DNA of 36,049 bases. Origin: Actinomycetota bacterium. GTDB lineage: Bacteria; Actinomycetota; Actinomycetes; Nanopelagicales; Nanopelagicaceae. Positions within the stretch are counted from its first letter, which is position 1; every line of letters begins with the position of its first letter. Location of the stretch: contig WLHW01000002.1 of the NCBI GenBank assembly GCA_009702525.1, forward strand, positions 1 through 36,049, given 5' to 3'. The notes below the pieces were generated by a model. That model was not told the DNA's origin, ran no database searches, and worked only from the letters and a program-made list of their open reading frames with translations. The position numbers and the translations under genes are program-made. Positions 25,338 to 35,567 of this stretch are shown piece by piece.

Positions 25338-25829
25338 TCACGAACTTTGAATGTATTGTGCGTTTTCGCGTGTCTTATCTCGCAAAAAATGGATTTCTTG
25401 GTCGAGTTGCCATTGGTGCATGAATACTTCAATCTCATGACCATCGCGGGCTAAGACTCGTTGGAGTCCAATTGAAGGCTCGATATCTAGCCAAAAAGTT
25501 GTTGCACCAGCATCACGCACTATTTTTTGTGCTGCCCCTACCCCTTCGATAATCAATACCTCAGTTGGTTGGATTCTTTGAACTCCATCAAATTTCATGG
25601 AGCTCCAGTTAAAAATCTCGATGTCGAATGGCACGCCGAGGCTATTTCTATGCAGAATGTCATTAAGTCTTGATGTTAGTTCCTCATTGAGTGCATGTGT
25701 CCAACCGTTGTAGAGATCATCCATGTGAATCACGGTTACAGTTTGACTCACACTATATTCATGCAGCAATTTCTCAGCCAGCGTTGTTTTACCGGCTCCA
25801 GCTGGACCATCAATGGCTATAAGTATCAT
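25338..25829 (-). CDS. P-loop kinase of uridine-kinase-like type, candidate thiamine (vitamin) kinase
   Basis: A 163-aa cytoplasmic P-loop NTPase. Walker A is DGPAGAGKTTLAEKLL at the N-terminus. A DDLYNGW box follows where nucleoside kinases bind substrate, then a Walker B-like VLIIEGVGA. A basic stretch near the C-terminus (FLRDKTRENAQ) could be the lid. The fold resembles uridine kinases, and similar small proteins occur widely in actinobacteria without an assigned role. Its start lies 20 nt inside the upstream pnuC-type gene, which a TPP riboswitch controls, so phosphorylation of imported thiamine is a reasonable guess. Alternatives are a nucleoside kinase or a nicotinamide riboside kinase. 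No similarity to known thiamine kinases or pyrophosphokinases is apparent. Confidence 0.75.
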   Translation of the reverse strand: MILIAIDGPAGAGKTTLAEKLLHEYSVSQTVTVIHMDDLYNGWTHALNEELTSRLNDILHRNSLGVPFDIEIFNWSSMKFDGVQRIQPTEVLIIEGVGAAQKIVRDAGATTFWLDIEPSIGLQRVLARDGHEIEVFMHQWQLDQEIHFLRDKTRENAQYIQSS

Positions 25830-26385
25830 GCCAACGTTTCCACCCTAGTACTGCGATTGCAGTAAAAGCCGCATATAAAACTGCTGTAAACCAATATCCA
25901 AGTAATGCATATTGCACTGTTCCAGCAGCGTCAACAATAAGCCAGAGAATCCAGGATTCAACTTTCTCATACACCATTAATATTTGAGCGACCAAGCTTC
26001 CAATCAATAAAAATGCATCTGACCAGGTAGCCGCCGCTCCAATATGAGATAGCAATGGAGTCAGAGCAATGACAGAGACGATTGTTCCAAGTGCCCAATA
26101 GATGCGTATCCGTTGTGAGAGGGCACCAGGTACTGCGCCAGTAGGCGCCCAATCACGCCAACCCCAGACTGCGGCAAGGATAAAAACTATTTGCAGAGCT
26201 GCACTCGCAAAAAGCTCTACTTGATAAAAGAAGACCATGTACAAGGCGCTACTCAAAGCCCACCATGGCCAAGTAATTCGTTTCCCAGTGGTGCCTAACC
26301 AGACACCTGTGAAGGATGTGATGGCTGAAATCAACTCAAGATAGGAGACTTCATATCCCCATGCAGTAAAAGCAATCGATGACAT
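25810..26385 (-). CDS. pnuC: PnuC-family vitamin transporter, probable thiamine transporter (PnuT type)
   Basis: An integral membrane protein of 191 aa with about seven hydrophobic segments. The PnuC marks are the VWGWRDW motif in the middle and the C-terminal TAIAVLGWKRWHD. PnuC proteins move nicotinamide riboside, while relatives PnuT and PnuX move thiamine and riboflavin by facilitated diffusion, with trapping by phosphorylation. Because a TPP aptamer runs directly into the start codon at 26385, thiamine is the likely substrate and pnuT the likely proper name. The downstream kinase overlaps its 3' end by 20 nt, consistent with an import-and-trap pair. Confidence 0.88.
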   Translation of the reverse strand: MSSIAFTAWGYEVSYLELISAITSFTGVWLGTTGKRITWPWWALSSALYMVFFYQVELFASAALQIVFILAAVWGWRDWAPTGAVPGALSQRIRIYWALGTIVSVIALTPLLSHIGAAATWSDAFLLIGSLVAQILMVYEKVESWILWLIVDAAGTVQYALLGYWFTAVLYAAFTAIAVLGWKRWHDTYSH

Positions 26386-26492: not shown

Positions 26493-26813
26493 GTGCACAA
26501 GTATGGCTATGTCGCGATGATTGTCTTCACAGTTGTCGGTTCATTTTGGCTGGAAGTTTTCCTAAAAGTAGGTGTACTTAAGCAGGTCAAGCGAATGCTT
26601 CTCACTATTGCCCCCGTTGCATTTCTCTTTATCGCTTGGGATAAATATGCAATCGCACATGGCCACTGGTTTTTCGACAAGGATCAGATTCTTGGAATCT
26701 ATGGACCGTGGTGCATTCCACTAGAGGAGTATCTATTCTTTATCGTGGTTCCGATTGCAGCTCTCATGACTATCGAAGCAGTTCGTAAAACCAAGAAGTA
26801 CTGGCCATTATGA
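26493..26813 (+). CDS. crtYc: Lycopene cyclase subunit CrtYc
   Basis: One half of the heterodimeric membrane lycopene cyclase of actinobacteria, which closes beta rings at lycopene ends. It has three hydrophobic helices in 106 aa, and the diagnostic loop ILGIYGPWCIPLEEYLFF, where PLEE is the conserved acidic motif. The GTG start at 26493 is supported by a -10 box at leaderless distance. The stop overlaps the crtYd start as ATGA, so the two halves are made together. Confidence 0.9.
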   Translation: MHKYGYVAMIVFTVVGSFWLEVFLKVGVLKQVKRMLLTIAPVAFLFIAWDKYAIAHGHWFFDKDQILGIYGPWCIPLEEYLFFIVVPIAALMTIEAVRKTKKYWPL

Positions 26814-27109
26814 GCTATACACAATTAGCCATAGTGGCTGTGGCAATCGCCGTTAGCTTCGATATGTATTTATTTAATACGCAGTTACTGAAGCGAAAAG
26901 TATTCTGGACTTCTTACGCAATCATTATTGGCTTTCAACTGCTTACTAACTGGTGGCTGACGTCTCGCAATATCGTGATGTATAGCCCAGATGCGATTAT
27001 AGGATTTCGTATCGCAGCAGCGCCAGTAGAAGATCTGTTGTTTGGTTTTGCCTTAGTTCTTGGAGTTATGTCTAATTGGATACGGCAAGACGTTTCACGT
27101 AGGCCTTAA
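26810..27109 (+). CDS. crtYd: Lycopene cyclase subunit CrtYd
   Basis: The partner half of the cyclase: 99 aa, three hydrophobic helices, and the matching acidic loop AIIGFRIAAAPVEDLLFGF (PVED corresponds to PLEE of CrtYc). It begins at the ATGA overlap with crtYc. Its final 38 nt overlap the end of crtB on the opposite strand. Whether this pair cyclises one end (gamma-carotene) or both (beta-carotene) cannot be told from sequence. Confidence 0.9.
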   Translation: MSYTQLAIVAVAIAVSFDMYLFNTQLLKRKVFWTSYAIIIGFQLLTNWWLTSRNIVMYSPDAIIGFRIAAAPVEDLLFGFALVLGVMSNWIRQDVSRRP

Positions 27110-27944
27110 TAAATACTTTTAACCTACGAGATGTTGAAGTCTTTGCTCTGTGATTAAAAATGTCGTAACCGATTTTTTCAACTTCATCGACGATGCCGCA
27201 GTAAAGCTCACTTGCAGCTTCAATGCATGGGCGACTTGAGGCTGACAGTAGTGCTATTCCTGGCGTGGCTTCACGTTGTAACTGTCGAACTCGTGCAATT
27301 TGAAACTTCAAAGCGCTCACGATCTGGGGTGTTAACTCGCGCGCTTCCAACATTTCTCTCGTAACACCGTGCTCTGCAAGCTCTGATATTGGTAGATAAA
27401 TACGACCTCGATCTAGATCTTCGTCCACATCTCGAATGAAATTAGCTAATTGAAAAGCTATTCCCAGTTTCTTTGCCGCTTCATAAGCTCCATCGTCGAG
27501 AACGCCAAGCACGGGCACCATTTCTAAACCAATAACTGCGGCCGAGCCATAGACGTATTCCAATAAATCCTCATAAGTTTGGTATTCCTGGATGGTTAGA
27601 TCCATGGTCATAGAGTGCAGAAACGCTTCAAAATGTGCGTGTGGGATTTCAAAAGTCTTGACTGTATCGATAAGGGCGCGACCTACAACATCATCACTTG
27701 TTCCGGTCTTCAGATCGCTCAATATTTTAGAGCCCCAAGTATTTAAGGCAGTGGCTTTTTCTTCTGCACTCAATGGCGATTCAAGATCATCGACGATTTC
27801 ATCGGCATATCGAGCAAAACCATAAAGCGCATGGACATATTTCCGTTTTGCCTCAGGTAAAAGCAGCGTAGCTAAGTAATAAGTTTTACCGTGCAATGAG
27901 TTTAATCTTTTGCACTCCTCGTACGATGCCTTGAGTTGGTCCAT
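27072..27944 (-). CDS. crtB: Phytoene synthase
   Basis: Condenses two geranylgeranyl diphosphates head to head into phytoene, the first C40 carotenoid. The two Asp-rich Mg-binding motifs are ARYADEIVDDLE (around residue 45) and NFIRDVDEDLDRGRIYLP (around 165). The FYLA-like YYLATLLLP start and QLANFIRD context fit phytoene rather than squalene synthases. Full length at 290 aa. The ATG abuts the crtI stop (TAAATG) with no gap. Last gene of crtE-crtI-crtB. Confidence 0.96.
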   Translation of the reverse strand: MDQLKASYEECKRLNSLHGKTYYLATLLLPEAKRKYVHALYGFARYADEIVDDLESPLSAEEKATALNTWGSKILSDLKTGTSDDVVGRALIDTVKTFEIPHAHFEAFLHSMTMDLTIQEYQTYEDLLEYVYGSAAVIGLEMVPVLGVLDDGAYEAAKKLGIAFQLANFIRDVDEDLDRGRIYLPISELAEHGVTREMLEARELTPQIVSALKFQIARVRQLQREATPGIALLSASSRPCIEAASELYCGIVDEVEKIGYDIFNHRAKTSTSRRLKVFIKAYVKRLAVSN

Positions 27945-29429
27945 TTACTTAACTGGACCAACGATGCGTTCGGCAGCTAAGCGACCCGAAATCAAAACCA
28001 TGGGAACGCCAACTCCTGGTTGAGTTCCAGAACCGGTGAAGACAACATTTTCAATTCCAGCTGCCATGTTGCGTGGACGAAATGGTCCAGTCTGGAAAAA
28101 AGTATGCGCACTTGCAAAAGGTGCGCCGCGCTCCATGCCTTGGGCTTGCCAATCAAGTGGCGTGGTCATTACTTCCGTTTCGATTGCATCGCCAAAACCC
28201 GTGTAACCGCGTTTTTCTAGAGTTTCGATCATGTGATCACGGTATGGCCGTGCTTGTGTGGTCCAATCAATATCTGCATCCAAGTTAGGTGTTGGAAAGA
28301 GAATGTAATACGAATGTTTTCCAGGTGGAGCCAGAGTTGGATCATCGTGGCTAGGGACAGTAACTAACACACTTGGATCACTCATGAGCTTCTTTTGTTT
28401 AATAAGCTCGTCGAAAACCCCATCCCAGGACTTACCAAAGTGAATATTGTGATGGGCGGCAAAATCAAACTTCTTTGATGATCCAACAAGCAGAGTTACG
28501 CAGGATGGTGAGTAATTTAAACGTTTAACAGACAGGGGAGTCTTACCCAATAAATCACGCCAAGCGACTGGTAAATCTGGATTGAGAATGACGGCGTCAC
28601 ATTCAATTCGCTGACCATCCTCAGTTAGAACAGCTTTAGCCCGTCCATTAGTTACTTCAATCTTAGAAACTGTGGTGCTGTACTTAAACTCAACACCATG
28701 CTTGTGGGCTGCTGCAGCTAAGGCACGCGGCACCGCATGCATTCCACCCTTAGGAAAAAAAACACCATTGACTGAATCCATGTATGCAATGACCGCATAA
28801 ATTGCAAGAGCTTGTTGCGGACTAACTCCGGCGTACATGGCTTGAAACGAATACACCTTTTGTAGTCGAGGATCCTTCATAAATTGATTAACTTTGGGCG
28901 ATAAGCGGCGGAACCCACCAATAGCAATTAAGCGTGCAAGGTTAGGCGTCAACAAATTAAGCGGGCTATCGATATTTCTATCAATAAAATCATTCATCTC
29001 GTACTTATAGAGCTTGGTAACAAAATCTACATATTTGCGATAGCCAGCAGCTTCAGCTGAACTCACTTTGGCGGCAATTTCAGCTTCCATTTCATTTGTA
29101 TCTGCATGCACGTCAATCTGAGATCCATCGTGATAGTAAGCGCGATATAAAGGGGATACCGGCATAAGTTCTAGCCAGTCATTCATATCTTCACCAACAC
29201 AACTAAATGCGTCTTGAATTAGTGAAGGCATTGTTAAAACTGAAGGACCTGTATCAAAGGCGTAACCTTGATGATTGAGTAATCCATTGCGTCCACCAGG
29301 AACTGATTCACGCTCTATGACTGTAACTTTTCGTCCTGCACCTGCTAATCGCAGAGCGGCGCTAAGGCCCGCCAGGCCAGCTCCGACAATTACAACGTGA
29401 TCAGTAGGACCTTTTACACGAGCGACCAT
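27945..29429 (-). CDS. crtI: Phytoene desaturase
   Basis: FAD-dependent desaturase that turns phytoene into lycopene in four steps. The N-terminal dinucleotide fold is VVIVGAGLAGLSAALRLAGAG, followed by ERESVPGGRNG and FDTGPSVLTMP. The C-terminal bacterial-type desaturase signature region FTGSGTQPGVGVPMVLISGRLAA is intact. Length of 494 aa is normal. It is flanked by zero-gap junctions to crtE and crtB. A second, distinct desaturase-like gene lies at 31270. Confidence 0.94.
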   Translation of the reverse strand: MVARVKGPTDHVVIVGAGLAGLSAALRLAGAGRKVTVIERESVPGGRNGLLNHQGYAFDTGPSVLTMPSLIQDAFSCVGEDMNDWLELMPVSPLYRAYYHDGSQIDVHADTNEMEAEIAAKVSSAEAAGYRKYVDFVTKLYKYEMNDFIDRNIDSPLNLLTPNLARLIAIGGFRRLSPKVNQFMKDPRLQKVYSFQAMYAGVSPQQALAIYAVIAYMDSVNGVFFPKGGMHAVPRALAAAAHKHGVEFKYSTTVSKIEVTNGRAKAVLTEDGQRIECDAVILNPDLPVAWRDLLGKTPLSVKRLNYSPSCVTLLVGSSKKFDFAAHHNIHFGKSWDGVFDELIKQKKLMSDPSVLVTVPSHDDPTLAPPGKHSYYILFPTPNLDADIDWTTQARPYRDHMIETLEKRGYTGFGDAIETEVMTTPLDWQAQGMERGAPFASAHTFFQTGPFRPRNMAAGIENVVFTGSGTQPGVGVPMVLISGRLAAERIVGPVK

Positions 29430-30506
29430 TTATGTATTCCTTTTGGTGGCAATTTTTGCCAACTCGGTTAGTAAAGAACGCCCCTTGTCATTGATTTCAG
29501 GAGCTTCAATGGCATTCAAGGACTCATTCGTTAAATTATCGATCATTATTTCCAGGGCATCTTTAGCCCCTGACGTTACAATCATTTCTTGCAAAATACT
29601 GACACCTTTATCATCTAGATCTGGCGCACCAAAGTATTTACGACTTGTCTCGCGCATCGCATCTGTTGAGCGCGCATCGGTAAGAGCAATTAAAACCGTC
29701 CGCTTACCTTCGCGTAAATCATCTCCTGTAGGTTTTCCAGTCACACTCGAATCCCCAAATACACCGAGCAAGTCATCTCTGTATTGAAAAGCTTCGCCGA
29801 GCGGCAAACCATAGCCAGACAGCGTAGACATCAGTTGTGATGAATTCTTATTGGACAGGGCAGCGCCAATATGCAAAGGGCGCTCAATTGTGTACTTGCC
29901 AGATTTATATCGGGCAATCTTAATAGAGCGATCTAAGCTCGTGCTCTTTTGTGTCTGTTCATGAATATCTAGAAATTGTCCGGCCATTAATTCAACACGC
30001 ATCTCATCATGAATAGGAAGAACATCACGTACTTGTCGTTGTGAAATGCCAGCCTCATTTAACATCTGATTCGACCACACCAGTGCAAGATCTCCTAACA
30101 AAACTGCTGCTGCTAAACCATAGGCTGGAGCAAAACCTTCTAACTCGTCTTGCACGTGAATAGATTCAAAGTGGCGATGTATCGATGGCTTTCCACGACG
30201 AGTATCAGAGCCATCCATGAGATCATCATGAATGAGTGCACATGCCTGTAAGAGTTCTAGGCTTGCTACAGCTTTGATTACTGACGTAGACATCTCATCA
30301 CCGGCACTGATGAACCCGCTGTATGCGAATAGAGGCCGCAGACGTTTTCCGCTATCTAGAACAAATGATGACAATGCTTGCGATACCGGCTTCAAATCAC
30401 TGGATATTGAGTCGAGAAAATCACTCTGTTGTTTTAAGAATCCAGATAGCTCTATATCAACGGCGTCGCGAATCTCTTGCAACTCGCTCTTGGCTACTGA
30501 ACTCAC
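29430..30506 (-). CDS. crtE: Geranylgeranyl diphosphate synthase (polyprenyl synthetase)
   Basis: Builds the C20 prenyl diphosphate for carotenoids from IPP and allylic primers. The first Asp-rich motif is IHDDLMDGSDTRRG and the second QYRDDLLGVFGD; GKRLRPLF binds IPP. A length of 358 aa, with an N-terminal extension, is usual for actinobacterial IdsA/CrtE enzymes. The start is GTG at 30506; TACCGT at -12 to -7 suggests a leaderless transcript. An alternative is coupling to a 32-codon ORF whose stop overlaps this start (GTGA). First gene of crtE-crtI-crtB. Confidence 0.93.
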   Translation of the reverse strand: MSSVAKSELQEIRDAVDIELSGFLKQQSDFLDSISSDLKPVSQALSSFVLDSGKRLRPLFAYSGFISAGDEMSTSVIKAVASLELLQACALIHDDLMDGSDTRRGKPSIHRHFESIHVQDELEGFAPAYGLAAAVLLGDLALVWSNQMLNEAGISQRQVRDVLPIHDEMRVELMAGQFLDIHEQTQKSTSLDRSIKIARYKSGKYTIERPLHIGAALSNKNSSQLMSTLSGYGLPLGEAFQYRDDLLGVFGDSSVTGKPTGDDLREGKRTVLIALTDARSTDAMRETSRKYFGAPDLDDKGVSILQEMIVTSGAKDALEIMIDNLTNESLNAIEAPEINDKGRSLLTELAKIATKRNT

Positions 30507-30695: not shown

Positions 30696-31334
30696 GTGCT
30701 AACTAAAGAAGAGTTTTATACAAAGTGGAGCTCACTTCATGGTGATGCAGCGATTACTGGCGTCGTTGCGGGCTGGTTGAAAATTTCCTACCGCTTTGGA
30801 TTAGTTGCAACGTTGCTTAGAATTTCTCCTAATGTATTAACTCTTCTTGGTCTACTTAGTGCTGCCATGACGGCATTGACGGCCTCAACGTGGTGGGCCG
30901 TTCTGTTCTTAGTTTTTTCACTTTTTTGTGACGGGATTGATGGCAGTGTTGCAATATTCCAAAAGCGAGACAGCGCCTGGGGTGCAACCTTAGATTCAGT
31001 AGTTGATCGCATCAGTGAAGCTTTTTGGCTGTATGCACTTTATACAGTAGGGGTACCAGCTTGGCTTTCTATTTCTCTGTGGAGCATCTCAGCTTTTCAA
31101 GAGTATGCGCGCGCAAAACTTGTTTCACTGGGTGTTTCAGATATTGGAATCGTAACACCAGCTGAGCGACCAATGCGAGCTAGTTTCATTTTTATTATTC
31201 TTATACTTGCACTTCTGGATTTACCTGGAGTTGTCTTGGCTGCAAGTATTTTTCTAGTTATTCAGATTCTTAGTTTCTTGATGGTCGTTCGCTACGCGCG
31301 CCACCAATTGCATGAGCAACGATTTCTCCGCTGA
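30696..31334 (+). CDS. CDP-alcohol phosphatidyltransferase family protein
   Basis: An integral membrane enzyme of the family that joins a CDP-activated lipid to an alcohol in phospholipid synthesis. It has about six hydrophobic segments in 212 aa. The active-site motif is DGIDGSVAIFQKRDSAWG, then ATLDSVVD; all four Asp of D-xx-DG-xx-AR-x8-G-xxx-D-xxx-D are present, but the Arg after Ala is Ile. That change is unusual and may alter CDP binding. The alcohol substrate is unknown (glycerol phosphate, inositol phosphate or another). GTG start with weak GGAAA 10 nt upstream. It stands alone between two carotenoid units, and its last 65 nt overlap the end of the crtD-like gene antisense. Confidence 0.8.
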   Translation: MLTKEEFYTKWSSLHGDAAITGVVAGWLKISYRFGLVATLLRISPNVLTLLGLLSAAMTALTASTWWAVLFLVFSLFCDGIDGSVAIFQKRDSAWGATLDSVVDRISEAFWLYALYTVGVPAWLSISLWSISAFQEYARAKLVSLGVSDIGIVTPAERPMRASFIFIILILALLDLPGVVLAASIFLVIQILSFLMVVRYARHQLHEQRFLR

Positions 31335-32781
31335 GTCCAACGAGCGGTAATCCACCGCCAGGATGAGCTGAGCCTCCAACACAGTAAAGATTTTTAATTG
31401 GCGAACGGTTTTTAGCACGCATAAAAGCTGCACGAACTCCATTGCTAGAAGTTCCATAAATCGAGCCCCCTGGAGCGCCAACTGATGCTTCAAGATCAGC
31501 GGGCGTTCTAAATGTAAATGACTCAAGACGGGCACGCACTGAAATACCGCGCTCTTCTATCTGATCGATTATTGTGTTGGCATATGTGCGATTGAAATTT
31601 TCGTTGCTCCAATCAAAGCCATTTACACCATGATGCGGGGCATTAACTAAAATAGACCAGCTCTCTAGGGTCTCATCCTTAGTCATCGCAGCATCGATTG
31701 GTGCGCAGATATAGATGGTTGGCTTCTCAACGGGTGTCTTGCTAGAAAAAATGGCATCGAACTCAGCGTCGTAATTCTCTGGGAAAAGTACGGTGTGATG
31801 AGCAAGTGGTGCTGATCCATCTTTTCTAAGGCCCAGTAAAACTGTAAAGCCGGCTATAGATGGATCTGCCTTACTTAAGTTTTTGCGTACTTTCTTTAAT
31901 TTCCCTTTGTTACCTTGAATTAGCTGGTTGTAAGTAATCGCTGCATCGACGTTAGTGACGATGACATCGGCATCGATACTGCTGCCATCAGCAAGACGAA
32001 TGCCTGTGGCGCGCCCTTTGTGAGTTGTTATCTCTACAATGTTCGAGTTAAAGTGAAAATTAACCCCAACATCGACACAACGTTGATGAACTAAAGTTGC
32101 AAGTGTTCCAAGTCCACCTTTGATGTGCCAAGCTCCGAAACTCTCTTCAACAAAGGCGATAGTTGCAAGTACCGCTGGGGCTTTGCGTGGATCAGAGCCG
32201 CTGTACGTGGCATATCGGTCGAGAATGAAGCGAAGGTGTTGATCTGGCAAAAACTCATCAGCTAATTTTCGCAGCGAATTCCATGGCGCAATGGTAAAAA
32301 TATCTTTAAGAATACTTGTTCGTTTCAGAAGTGAGAGCGGTGAGCCAAGCTCTGATTCAACAAAAGGCTCCCGCGAAACGTCCCACATTTTTTCTGCTCT
32401 ACGCATCAGAGCATCCCACTGCCTAGCGACTTCATCACCATAAGAAAGTCGAATCGCATTTAGAGTATGAAACCGGGAAAGATTTGCAAACTTAACGCTG
32501 GTGCCATCGCTGAATCGATAATCAAAAGATGGGTCGACTGGAGTGATCTCACACAACATTCCTAAAGGTTTTCCAGTGCGGATAAAGAAATCCTTATAGA
32601 CGGCAGGCAATGTCAGTAATGAAGGACCAGTATCAAATGCTGATTTGCCAATCCATTCAGTTCGAAGTTTTCCACCATAGGTATCACTTGCCTCGTACAG
32701 GCTTACGTCATGCCCGGTTCGAGCCAAACGGCCGGCCGCAGTCATGCCGCCCATACCGGCACCGATTACAACGATCTTCAT
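31270..32781 (-). CDS. crtD: CrtD/CrtI-family carotenoid desaturase (probable 3',4'-desaturase)
   Basis: A second FAD-dependent carotenoid desaturase-like enzyme. The dinucleotide fold is VVIGAGMGGMTAAGRLARTG, then GGKLRTE and FDTGPSLLTLPAVYKDFF, a form typical of CrtD and hydroxyneurosporene desaturases. The C-terminal YCVGGSAHPGGGLPLVGLSGE matches the family signature. The start is moved to MKIVVIGAG at 32781, whose ATG overlaps the upstream glycosyltransferase stop (ATGA). Next to cruF- and cruG-like genes it probably adds the 3',4' double bond to a hydroxylated carotenoid end. A CrtO-type ketolase or CrtP-type oxidase is the alternative. Length is about 503 aa. Confidence 0.75.
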   Translation of the reverse strand: MKIVVIGAGMGGMTAAGRLARTGHDVSLYEASDTYGGKLRTEWIGKSAFDTGPSLLTLPAVYKDFFIRTGKPLGMLCEITPVDPSFDYRFSDGTSVKFANLSRFHTLNAIRLSYGDEVARQWDALMRRAEKMWDVSREPFVESELGSPLSLLKRTSILKDIFTIAPWNSLRKLADEFLPDQHLRFILDRYATYSGSDPRKAPAVLATIAFVEESFGAWHIKGGLGTLATLVHQRCVDVGVNFHFNSNIVEITTHKGRATGIRLADGSSIDADVIVTNVDAAITYNQLIQGNKGKLKKVRKNLSKADPSIAGFTVLLGLRKDGSAPLAHHTVLFPENYDAEFDAIFSSKTPVEKPTIYICAPIDAAMTKDETLESWSILVNAPHHGVNGFDWSNENFNRTYANTIIDQIEERGISVRARLESFTFRTPADLEASVGAPGGSIYGTSSNGVRAAFMRAKNRSPIKNLYCVGGSAHPGGGLPLVGLSGEIVAHAIGGARSERPSRN

Positions 32782-33851
32782 ACAGTGCGGCCCTTCCATT
32801 CAATAGTCCCGCGCATTACCCATGAATACACAATGAGGTAAATAAGCACGATAGATGAAATTGGATGTGCAAGCGAATCGAATAAGCGCCCTTTGCTTCT
32901 GAGTGCACTCAGAACTCGAGTTGCAACAACGAAGAGGTAGGCGATCCATCCCCATAAAGATCCGGTTAGCGCAACAACAAGAGGAGCGACACCTGTGATG
33001 AAGAGAAAGAGAATTGTAGTTAGTGAACCAAGCCCAGAACCAAAGGCCCGGTTAAGTGATTTTCCATAACCGCTTTCGATTTGGCTCCACGATGAATACA
33101 TGCGACATGTTGCAATTGAAGCTCCATTAATGACGCCACCATGGGAGCCAGATTTAATTAAATTGCGCGCTAAAAACATATCGTCTAGAACATCAGACTT
33201 AACGGATTCATATCCACCGGCCAGTAATAATGCATTTTTGCGAACCACGAAAAATTGACCATTGGCAACGGCCATCGAAGGACGTGAGGATTTCTTGGCA
33301 AGTGATAATGGAAGGGTTGCCATCCACGACCATTGCAATAGCGGCTGAATTAATCGTTCGGCAAGGGATTGAGTTAGCTGACGGGGGTAGGGGGAGACAA
33401 AATCTAGGCCTAAGTTCTTTAAAGAAGTCACTGAACGACTGATTGCATCTAGTGTTAACCGAACATCGGCATCGATAGAGACAATTATTTCACCACTGGA
33501 TGCTTCTAGAAGTTGATGTAATGCCCACGTCTTACCTATCCAGCCGAGTGGCAGTGGTGCACCTTTGATTACGCTGAAATTCTCTAAACCAACTAATTCT
33601 TGCTGAAGCAAGTTCAACGTTTCATCCTCTGAATTGTCATCTAAGAAAATGAACTCAGCTCTTTGCAAGTGATTCTGTGCCTTGAGGCACGCTACTAAGT
33701 CATGAATATTTGATGCTTCATTTCGAACCGGAACTATGACGCTAACAAACTCCTCAATAAATGCAGGGTCTTTAGGCTCAATAATCGTGATGAAGTTAAT
33801 GACTGAAATCAGGGTTATAAGTAAAACTGGCAGAGCTATTAGTAGATACAT
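32778..33851 (-). CDS. cruG: Family 2 glycosyltransferase, CruG/CrtQ-like (carotenoid glycosylation)
   Basis: A membrane-bound GT2 glycosyltransferase of 357 aa. An N-terminal helix is followed by the GT-A domain: SVIVPVRNEASNIHDLV, FLDDNSEDET and the metal-binding IVSIDADV. LLQWSWM is a Q-x-x-x-W-like acceptor-side motif, and the protein ends with three or four hydrophobic helices. This layout fits CrtQ (staphyloxanthin) and CruG (myxol 2'-fucosyl/glucosyl) enzymes. Lying between cruF- and crtD-like genes, it probably attaches a sugar to a hydroxylated carotenoid. The sugar and position are unknown. ATGA overlap with crtD, 6 nt after cruF. Confidence 0.7.
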   Translation of the reverse strand: MYLLIALPVLLITLISVINFITIIEPKDPAFIEEFVSVIVPVRNEASNIHDLVACLKAQNHLQRAEFIFLDDNSEDETLNLLQQELVGLENFSVIKGAPLPLGWIGKTWALHQLLEASSGEIIVSIDADVRLTLDAISRSVTSLKNLGLDFVSPYPRQLTQSLAERLIQPLLQWSWMATLPLSLAKKSSRPSMAVANGQFFVVRKNALLLAGGYESVKSDVLDDMFLARNLIKSGSHGGVINGASIATCRMYSSWSQIESGYGKSLNRAFGSGLGSLTTILFLFITGVAPLVVALTGSLWGWIAYLFVVATRVLSALRSKGRLFDSLAHPISSIVLIYLIVYSWVMRGTIEWKGRTV

Positions 33852-33857
33852 AAAAAT

Positions 33858-34661
33858 TTATGGCCGTCCCAGCCATCTGGCGAAGAAATAAGGCATGGCC
33901 ACCGCGCTAAAAATCGCGCCAGCAAAGAGCGCAATTCCTGGCCGGTGAAAAAAGAAAAGGTTTCCAACGACACCAGAAAAAAGTGTCCATGCCACAAAAA
34001 TATCAACCGCAGAAAATGAGGGACTTATTTTACGTCGATCACGGGGGAGCATGAGGTGCAATAAGGCGATTAATCCCATTCCAGTTAGCAGCCAGCCAAA
34101 TGTATTGGAGAGTGGAATCTCTGGTTGGAAGGGAACGTGAGCACCAGTTACTTTCCAGGTCCAACGACCAGATGTAACCATTAGTGGATCTAGGAAAAGA
34201 TCCCACGCCGCCATTGCAACTCCACCGTATAGAAAAACCCAGTTACCGGCAATACGTCTTGCAATTACAAGAACGGGATGCGCAATCATGATCCAGGCGA
34301 AAGGTACAACTAGTGGAACTGAAAATATCTGCAAGCCAAGGTCAGGTGAGTATGAATACTCACCAAATGGCCAAGATGTTGCTACTCCTATATTTTCAAT
34401 TAAAAGTGCGTAAAAAAATGTAAAACCTAAATAAGTAAAGGCATATCGTGATCCATATGCCATGATGGCGTGCAGAAGCATGGCCCCCGCGCCCCAATAC
34501 ACAACGGCAATTGTTAGTAGACGTAAAGCCTCACCATCGATAAGCGGGTATGCAATTTGAAGAGATATGGCGATTGCTAACACCGTTGCTAGCAATGCAT
34601 TCATTCGAGGCGACATACGTCCGCGGCGATTCCGGCGTGGTGAGTAATTGCGGATCGACAT
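33858..34661 (-). CDS. cruF: CruF-family carotenoid hydratase (DUF422)
   Basis: A multi-pass membrane protein of the carotenoid biosynthesis DUF422 group, 267 aa with about seven helices. CruF adds water across the 1',2' double bond of the open carotenoid end, as in deinoxanthin, myxol and bacterioruberin pathways. Visible family features are the YAFTYLGFTFFYALLIENIGV stretch, SWPFGEYSYS, VPFAWIMIAHPV, and the acidic AAWDLFLDPLMV followed by GRWTW. A basic N-terminal tail (RNYSPRRNRRGR) precedes the first helix. It lies 27 nt after the crtA-like gene, with a small hairpin in that gap. Confidence 0.85.
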   Translation of the reverse strand: MSIRNYSPRRNRRGRMSPRMNALLATVLAIAISLQIAYPLIDGEALRLLTIAVVYWGAGAMLLHAIMAYGSRYAFTYLGFTFFYALLIENIGVATSWPFGEYSYSPDLGLQIFSVPLVVPFAWIMIAHPVLVIARRIAGNWVFLYGGVAMAAWDLFLDPLMVTSGRWTWKVTGAHVPFQPEIPLSNTFGWLLTGMGLIALLHLMLPRDRRKISPSFSAVDIFVAWTLFSGVVGNLFFFHRPGIALFAGAIFSAVAMPYFFARWLGRP

Positions 34662-34673
34662 AGATATAAGTCT

Positions 34674-34688
34674 GCCCTATCTCAGGGC
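34674..34688 (-). other. Intercistronic hairpin between crtA-like gene and cruF
   Basis: GCCCT-GAGAT-AGGGC forms a perfect 5-bp stem with a 5-nt loop right after the crtA-like stop codon and 12 nt before the cruF ATG. There is no T-run, so it is not a standard terminator; an RNA-stability or partial-attenuation element is possible. Confidence 0.5.
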
Positions 34689-35345
34689 TTAGTCATTAAT
34701 TGAGCCACGCACATCTCGCAGTGCAAATCGTGCAAATAGCTCTTCTGAATACCATTTGTACGTAGCTGTGGCTGCAATCGCCTTCGTATGAGCATCACCG
34801 CGGTATGCAAAATCTCGTAGCGCTGCGGGGGATTCCCATATTGAGAATGTGCCCTGTAAGCCAATGGGAGCTTCACCGATGCCAATGGCTGCAACTAAGC
34901 CTGGCGCAGCTTTGAGAGAAGCAGTCACTGGTGGCACCGCTCGCCAAAATCTAAAGTTTTGTAGCCAAGCAATTCGTGCACGTGTAATGGCAACGACTTG
35001 TCCATCCCAGTTCTGCGCCGAAGGTGTAAATGGTTCTTTACTAGCCCATGTGCCATGGGATGCAATCGGTTCGATCACTGCGCGAAATTCACTCACGCTA
35101 TTTTTGCGCCACTGTCTGATTACAAATGATTTATCAAAAACTTCAACATCATGTACTTGTGCAATTAAACCCCACCGAAGTACGTTGGCATCGGATGGAG
35201 TAAAGGTTTCACCTTTGCCTGTACCGAGTGATTTAAAGAAGCCCACGTTGGAAGAAGAACGTAATACGAATCGATCCAATGCCATCGAAACAAGTGCAAA
35301 TGGAATTACGCTCGGCTTAATCTTCCAAAAATAGGCAACTATCAT
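34689..35345 (-). CDS. crtA: CrtA-like carotenoid monooxygenase (spheroidene monooxygenase family)
   Basis: Resembles Rhodobacter CrtA, which uses O2 to put a keto group at C-2 of acyclic carotenoid ends. Matching blocks recalled from CrtA are GTGKGETFTP (GTGEGFTP), HGTWASKEPF, AITRARIAWLQNFRFWRAVPP, AAIGIGEAPIGLQGTFSIWES and the C-terminal WYSEELFARF. These occur in the right order over 218 aa, close to the family length. It is soluble or peripheral, with an N-terminal hydrophobic patch. The ATG abuts the stop of the small membrane protein (TAAATG). Next to cruF, cruG and crtD it probably oxidises C-2' of the hydrated end. Its substrate differs from that in purple bacteria, so the exact product is inferred. 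Confidence 0.8.
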   Translation of the reverse strand: MIVAYFWKIKPSVIPFALVSMALDRFVLRSSSNVGFFKSLGTGKGETFTPSDANVLRWGLIAQVHDVEVFDKSFVIRQWRKNSVSEFRAVIEPIASHGTWASKEPFTPSAQNWDGQVVAITRARIAWLQNFRFWRAVPPVTASLKAAPGLVAAIGIGEAPIGLQGTFSIWESPAALRDFAYRGDAHTKAIAATATYKWYSEELFARFALRDVRGSIND

Positions 35346-35567
35346 TTAGAACCAGCGAATCATGCCAATGATTCCTGCAGCAGCATAAAAGAACTGCAGG
35401 AAGAGAATTCCCTTATGTTTACCCAAGAAGGCCCAAATACCAATGAGGGCAGATGATGCAAGTAAAAGAGAAAAACCAATGAACTCCGCGCCGATATTGG
35501 CTGCAACAAGAAGTGAATAAACAATCGCCGTTACAACGCCAAGCCATTCAAAGATCTTTGATTTCAT
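35346..35567 (-). CDS. Small membrane protein, unknown function
   Basis: A 73-aa protein, almost all hydrophobic, with three likely helices (about residues 6-24, 29-47, 53-71) and a short basic loop GKHKG. The C-terminal LQFFYAAAGIIGMIRWF recalls the end of a PnuC or CBU_0592-type half-transporter, but I do not claim homology. It is the first gene of the crtA-cruF-cruG-crtD unit and ends in TAAATG with the crtA-like gene, so it may work with carotenoid synthesis or membrane placement. GATACT at -12 to -7 supports a leaderless start at 35567. Confidence 0.7.
   Translation of the reverse strand: MKSKIFEWLGVVTAIVYSLLVAANIGAEFIGFSLLLASSALIGIWAFLGKHKGILFLQFFYAAAGIIGMIRWF

Follow-up and report, generated by a model that had tools for sequence, protein, structure and literature searches.

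A conserved carotenoid-tailoring operon of an acI actinobacterium and its predicted phleixanthophyll-type product

Described pathways and the acI locus

Phleixanthophyll of mycobacteria joins a β ring to a 1'-glucosyloxy-2'-hydroxy end; the product predicted here for an acI actinobacterium would have the same structure. The myxoxanthophyll (myxol 2'-fucoside) of cyanobacteria shares CruF and CruG with the acI system, yet it differs from the predicted acI pigment in its 2'-O-sugar, attached by a CruG that glycosylates O-2', and in its ring 3-hydroxyl; its synthesis is not known to include a CrtA step. Salinixanthin, from Salinibacter and Rhodothermus, is likewise monocyclic, 1'-glycosylated, 2'-hydroxylated and 3',4'-didehydrogenated, but has a 4-keto ring and an acylated sugar. 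For R. marinus, neither a CruF nor a CrtA homolog was found, and the case for CrtD was unclear (PMC5822342). Within Actinobacteria, the sioxanthin of Salinispora and other Micromonosporaceae carries the ψ end predicted for acI, a 1'-glucosyloxy, 2'-ol, 3',4'-didehydro group with the sugar on O-1', whereas its other end is an aromatic φ ring (PMC8469146). The myxol pathway of flavobacteria (Nonlabens spongiae, Flavobacterium P99-3) has CrtE-B-I, a lycopene cyclase, CruF and CrtD in common with the acI cluster, together with a CrtA-related 2-hydroxylase, and leads to a 1',2'-dihydroxy 3',4'-didehydro end (PMC11855829). The acI cluster differs in adding a glycosyltransferase and in using a heterodimeric CrtYc/CrtYd cyclase.

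The window analyzed here, a stretch of 36,049 nucleotides, belongs to an assembly of 1.10 Mb in 97 contigs that is 75.8% complete and probably derives from a Planktophila-type acI actinobacterium. Its tailoring genes form a single tight operon of five ORFs on the minus strand, running from 35567 to 31270 (Table 1). The initial annotation had placed this unit and its gene order correctly: a small membrane protein is followed by a CrtA-like monooxygenase, a CruF hydratase, a CruG-like glycosyltransferase and a CrtD desaturase. The first three junctions measure 0, 27 and 6 bp; at the fourth, cruG would overlap crtD by 4 bp if crtD starts, as is probable, at its second Met. Downstream of crtD come a CDP-alcohol phosphatidyltransferase gene in convergent orientation, the genes crtE, crtI and crtB, and finally the convergent crtYc and crtYd. 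The 73-residue membrane protein is restricted to a close subclade of relatives, and was therefore not counted in the core of the pathway. An Rfam search of the locus found no RNA element, and a promoter scan returned fewer matches than in shuffled sequences, so we make no claim regarding regulation of the operon.

Table 1. Carotenoid genes of the window, with the profile matches that support each assignment
Feature	Position	Strand	Remarks
Small PnuC-like half-repeat membrane protein (73 aa)	35346..35567	-	Opens the operon; PF04973 under its cut-off (E 0.007)
crtA-like carotenoid C-2' monooxygenase, 218 aa (CrtA-OH activity assumed)	34689..35345	-	NF045923 E 1.8e-44
cruF carotenoid 1',2'-hydratase, 267 aa	33858..34661	-	PF04240 111 bits; TIGR03460 E 2e-27
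cruG-like GT2 carotenoid glycosyltransferase, 357 aa	32778..33851	-	PF00535 above cut-off; NF045692 (CruG) E 3.4e-38
crtD 1-hydroxycarotenoid 3,4-desaturase, start probably 32781	31270..32799	-	NF045637 E 7.3e-99; TIGR02734 above cut-off
crtE prenyl diphosphate synthase	29430..30506	-	PF00348; syntenic in relatives
crtI phytoene desaturase	27945..29429	-	TIGR02734 524 bits
crtB phytoene synthase	27072..27944	-	PF00494 E 7e-69
crtYc lycopene cyclase subunit, main-cluster pair	26493..26813	+	TIGR03462 above cut-off
crtYd lycopene cyclase subunit, main-cluster pair	26810..27109	+	TIGR03462 above cut-off

Comparison of 80 related loci showed the order CrtA-CruF-CruG-CrtD again in every case where the contig extends far enough; in most of them the phosphatidyltransferase, CrtE, CrtI and CrtB come next. 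CruF is present in all 20 high-quality genomes of the host genus, and the cassette is retained in 1.2-Mb genomes of the host family. Against the relative G024, the five operon genes are under purifying selection (dN 0.018 to 0.18, dS >1), and all ten carotenoid-cluster ORFs compared give dN values of 0.016-0.18 with dS of 0.65-2.7. The conserved gene order and the purifying selection lie far beyond chance. Separately, a full-length PnuC-like gene occupies the opposite end of the carotenoid cluster (25810-26385), while the PnuC-like half protein abuts crtA.

The initial annotation also presented a CrtA-type enzyme with CruF/CruG as a combination not known to be described. This view did not hold, since the CruF, CrtD and CrtA-related 2-hydroxylase of Nonlabens have been expressed stepwise (PMC11855829), and the pairing is widespread in Actinomycetes. 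Among 297 genomes of this class, CrtA-like proteins were detected in 110, CruF in 140, and both in 105; in 97 of these 105 the two genes lie within 8 kb of one another. Outside the host family, CruF accompanies CrtA in 78 of 83 genomes. The surveyed genomes are related by descent, and these counts do not represent independent events. Nonomuraea gerenzanensis, for instance, carries CruF, CrtD, a glycosyltransferase and CrtA beside CrtE-I-B. The proximity of CrtA to CruF is thus a common actinobacterial arrangement rather than a new combination, and the acI operon is a well-conserved one for a predicted phleixanthophyll-type pigment, ordinary among actinobacteria. In some other families, a CrtO-like ketolase gene follows CrtA (L057:3872-5902 and L058:9128-11065; NF045689 E 3e-75 and 2e-72, both below cut-off), which suggests 4-keto versions of the same pigment.

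Tailoring enzyme families and the predicted product

The calls of CrtA-, CruF-, CruG- and CrtD-like proteins agree with the profile searches at the level of family, while the equivalog models for the tailoring enzymes score under their curated cut-offs. CruF is a clear member of its family, with 111 bits (E 1e-31) against a Pfam cut-off of 25 for PF04240; among NCBIfam models, it scores best with that of the archaeal bisanhydrobacterioruberin hydratase and not with the γ-carotene one. The glycosyltransferase belongs to GT2, with PF00535 above its cut-off, and finds its best NCBIfam match in the CruG model NF045692 at 131.6 bits, against an equivalog cut-off of 600. CrtD scores higher with NF045637 (331 bits, below the cut-off of that model) than with TIGR02734 (290 bits, above the crtI-family cut-off), and the CrtI protein shows the reverse. 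These two are the only CrtI-family proteins in the genome that exceed the cut-off.

The CrtA-like protein required closer comparison. Its sole NCBIfam match is NF045923, at 151.8 bits half of the equivalog cut-off of 300, so that it falls short of the purple-bacterial 2-ketolase model. Its membership of the monooxygenase family, as initially annotated, was nevertheless upheld by full-length homology and shared core motifs: a tblastn search against plasmids returned eight spheroidene monooxygenases of Rhodobacterales, 29-34% identical to the query along 91-96% of its length, with the motifs TFS[IL]W, FA, H185, W197 and EEL[FY]AR in common. The residues shared with the CrtA of Roseobacter litoralis (33% identity) include R121, W169, H185, W197 and the EEL.AR motif. 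A PDB sequence search with this protein gave no match, and its fold was therefore compared instead. The AlphaFold model (pLDDT 87, 68 sequences) comprises two ferredoxin-like halves resembling the ABM/dimeric α+β barrel superfamily, at modest TM-scores of 0.3-0.55. The matches include the heme proteins HmoB, coproheme decarboxylase and aldoxime dehydratase. The modeled fold suggests that the CrtA-like protein may depend on heme for its monooxygenase activity, with H185 as the heme ligand. An isolated CrtA-like gene, annotated as hypothetical and with no carotenoid genes within 8 kb, was also seen on a Deinococcus taeanensis plasmid (L249:7881-8666).

Taken step by step, CrtE, CrtB and CrtI would supply lycopene, and CrtYc/CrtYd would close one end to give γ-carotene. 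At the open end, CruF would hydrate C-1',2', CrtD would desaturate C-3',4', and the CrtA-like enzyme would hydroxylate C-2'. The Nonlabens spongiae genes provide a precedent for this sequence, as stepwise expression of CrtY, CruF and CrtD in lycopene-producing Escherichia coli gives 1'-hydroxytorulene, which the CrtA-related 2-hydroxylase (CrtA-OH) converts to deoxymyxol (PMC11855829). A glycosyltransferase step after deoxymyxol would give a deoxymyxol glycoside, with the CruG-like transferase placing the sugar on the 1'- or the 2'-hydroxyl. The expected product is therefore of the phleixanthophyll type, a glycoside of deoxymyxol (plectaniaxanthin) whose β ring is unmodified. If the sugar is a hexose, the formula of this glycoside would be C46H66O7, with a computed mass of 730.48 Da.

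The oxidation state at C-2' deserves separate consideration, since the characterized enzymes compared above, the Rhodobacterales spheroidene monooxygenases, introduce a 2-keto group, and the acI enzyme might by the same token yield a spheroidenone-like 2'-keto end. We consider this unlikely: the Nonlabens enzyme hydroxylated a substrate that already carried the 1'-hydroxyl and the 3',4'-double bond (PMC11855829), and sioxanthin, the known example of such an end group in actinobacteria, bears a 2'-hydroxyl (PMC8469146). A 2'-hydroxyl thus appears the better prediction for acI.

Cyclase pairs and the predicted cyclic end

The same genome holds a second CrtYc/CrtYd pair, on contig C67 (L068:11877-13536), divergent from the retinal gene blh. 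Throughout the genus, 30 of 32 blh matches adjoin a CrtYd match; of the other two, both situated at contig ends, one (G001) is next to CrtYc and one (G020) has no adjoining match. A FastTree phylogeny of concatenated CrtYc and CrtYd separates the main-cluster pairs from most of the blh-locus pairs, with weak support at some deep nodes. Within the genus, some cyclase pairs stand at a retinal locus and others in the pigment cluster, and every genome that has a second pair besides its main-cluster pair also has blh.

This division bears on whether the operon pigment is cyclic at all. Conceivably, the operon tailors the ψ ends of lycopene to an acyclic product, leaving CrtYc/CrtYd to retinal synthesis only; CruF does score highest with a hydratase model for acyclic bacterioruberin, and several genomes of the genus have no cyclase in the carotenoid cluster. 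All 20 high-quality genomes, however, keep CrtYc/CrtYd together with CruF, whereas blh is present in 11. Each of the nine that are blh-free retains a cyclase pair, six in the main cluster and three at the former blh locus, as recognized by its neighboring M23 peptidase gene. Since blh-free genomes keep the pair, the cyclase must be needed for more than home-made retinal, and an acyclic product is very unlikely. The simplest reading is that the cyclase serves another product, which fits a cyclic, non-retinal operon pigment. Two complete genomes (G014 and G015; loci L020 and L012) encode an actinorhodopsin with no blh found, so their retinal comes from elsewhere or from another enzyme. In the genus member G060 (99% complete), the cassette is present and neither rhodopsin nor blh was detected.

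The ring itself is predicted to be bare, because no CrtZ was found and only CrtI and CrtD exceed the crtI-family cut-off; this prediction covers ring modification by CrtZ and CrtO, with a host genome that is 75.8% complete. The CrtZ-type hydroxylase profile (PF04116) matched none of 61 genus genomes, while positive controls were matched. No ring 3-hydroxyl is accordingly expected in acI, unlike in flavobacterial myxol. Several genus genomes contain a weakly CrtO-like FAD protein of 504-516 residues, which scores 83-96 bits with NF045689 against a cut-off of 1000. The host copy (L214:3631-5154, 507 aa, 83 bits) lies outside any crt cluster, between two PLP-enzyme genes, and with these scores and neighbors its identity as a CrtO ketolase was set aside as unsupported.

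Overall, the product class proposed in the initial annotation, a glycosylated, 2'-oxygenated monocyclic carotenoid, is supported by family matches for each step, by the Nonlabens and sioxanthin precedents, and by retention of the cyclase. We put the probability at roughly 0.75 that the window encodes a complete C40 pathway whose ψ-end-tailoring operon leads to a monocyclic deoxymyxol glycoside, with a photoprotective membrane role the likeliest.

Actinorhodopsin and the role of the pigment

Known rhodopsin antennas carry either a 4-keto ring (salinixanthin) or a 3-hydroxylated ring (the Kin4B8 partners). The initial annotation proposed that, if the host has an actinorhodopsin, the operon pigment could be its antenna, as salinixanthin is for xanthorhodopsin. 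Part of the setting it anticipated is present in relatives: actinorhodopsin occurs in most genus genomes, and the glycine at the xanthorhodopsin G156 position, which forms the fenestration, is found in 20 of 20 aligned actinorhodopsins (19 from the genus, one from the same class but a different family), so that a carotenoid window is in place. In the host genome, at its 75.8% completeness, no rhodopsin was found. Persistence of the cassette in 1.2-Mb genomes of the host family also speaks in favor of an antenna. Moreover, Aquiluna actinorhodopsin takes up the native carotenoid of its own organism, and its initial pumping is faster once the pigment is bound (PMC8113403); an antenna whose head group differs is therefore possible. 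The Aquiluna pigment mass of 591.49 was considered as the diol predicted here, and rejected as a misfit with the diol plus sodium (591.42); Aquiluna belongs to another family.

Several observations weigh against an antenna as the main role of the operon in acI. Searches of the genus for CrtZ, the ring 3-hydroxylase of a Kin4B8-type antenna, and for CrtO found none of the former and no convincing case of the latter. The Kin4B8 contacts Ser208/Tyr209 and Asn188/Tyr191 are not conserved in acI actinorhodopsins, where the positions of Ser208, Tyr209, Asn188 and Tyr191 hold M/I/L/V, G/V/N/L, R and L/I, respectively. Outside the host family, cassette and rhodopsin are not associated: rhodopsin was detected in 7 of 83 genomes with CrtA and 11 of 186 without it (p 0.44). 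G060 has the cassette with no detected rhodopsin. The antenna proposal thus stands unsupported so far; as the main role of the operon it appears unlikely on this evidence. Slightly less likely still is the more specific idea that acI actinorhodopsins bind this glycosylated monocyclic carotenoid as an antenna in a new mode, through the fenestration glycine but with neither a 4-keto nor a 3-hydroxyl group on the ring and with none of the polar contacts made in Kin4B8, and that part of the lineage keeps separate cyclase pairs for retinal and for the antenna. We instead favor a pigment that would reside in the membrane, acting most likely in photoprotection and membrane stabilization, with actinorhodopsin binding a possible, secondary function.

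In lakes, acI bacteria rank among the most abundant cells. The conserved gene set probably enables one of these freshwater bacteria to make a red carotenoid linked to a sugar, of an already known chemical type. A firm prediction of the acI pigment, comprising mass, spectrum and a gene per step, would be testable in the few cultured strains; the CrtA homolog is present in the cultured relatives IMCC26103 and Ca. Planktophila lacus MMS-21-148. Moreover, the split of the cyclase pairs, together with the absence of blh from genomes that keep the cyclase, offers a handle on which cells synthesize retinal themselves and which rely on other cells for it.
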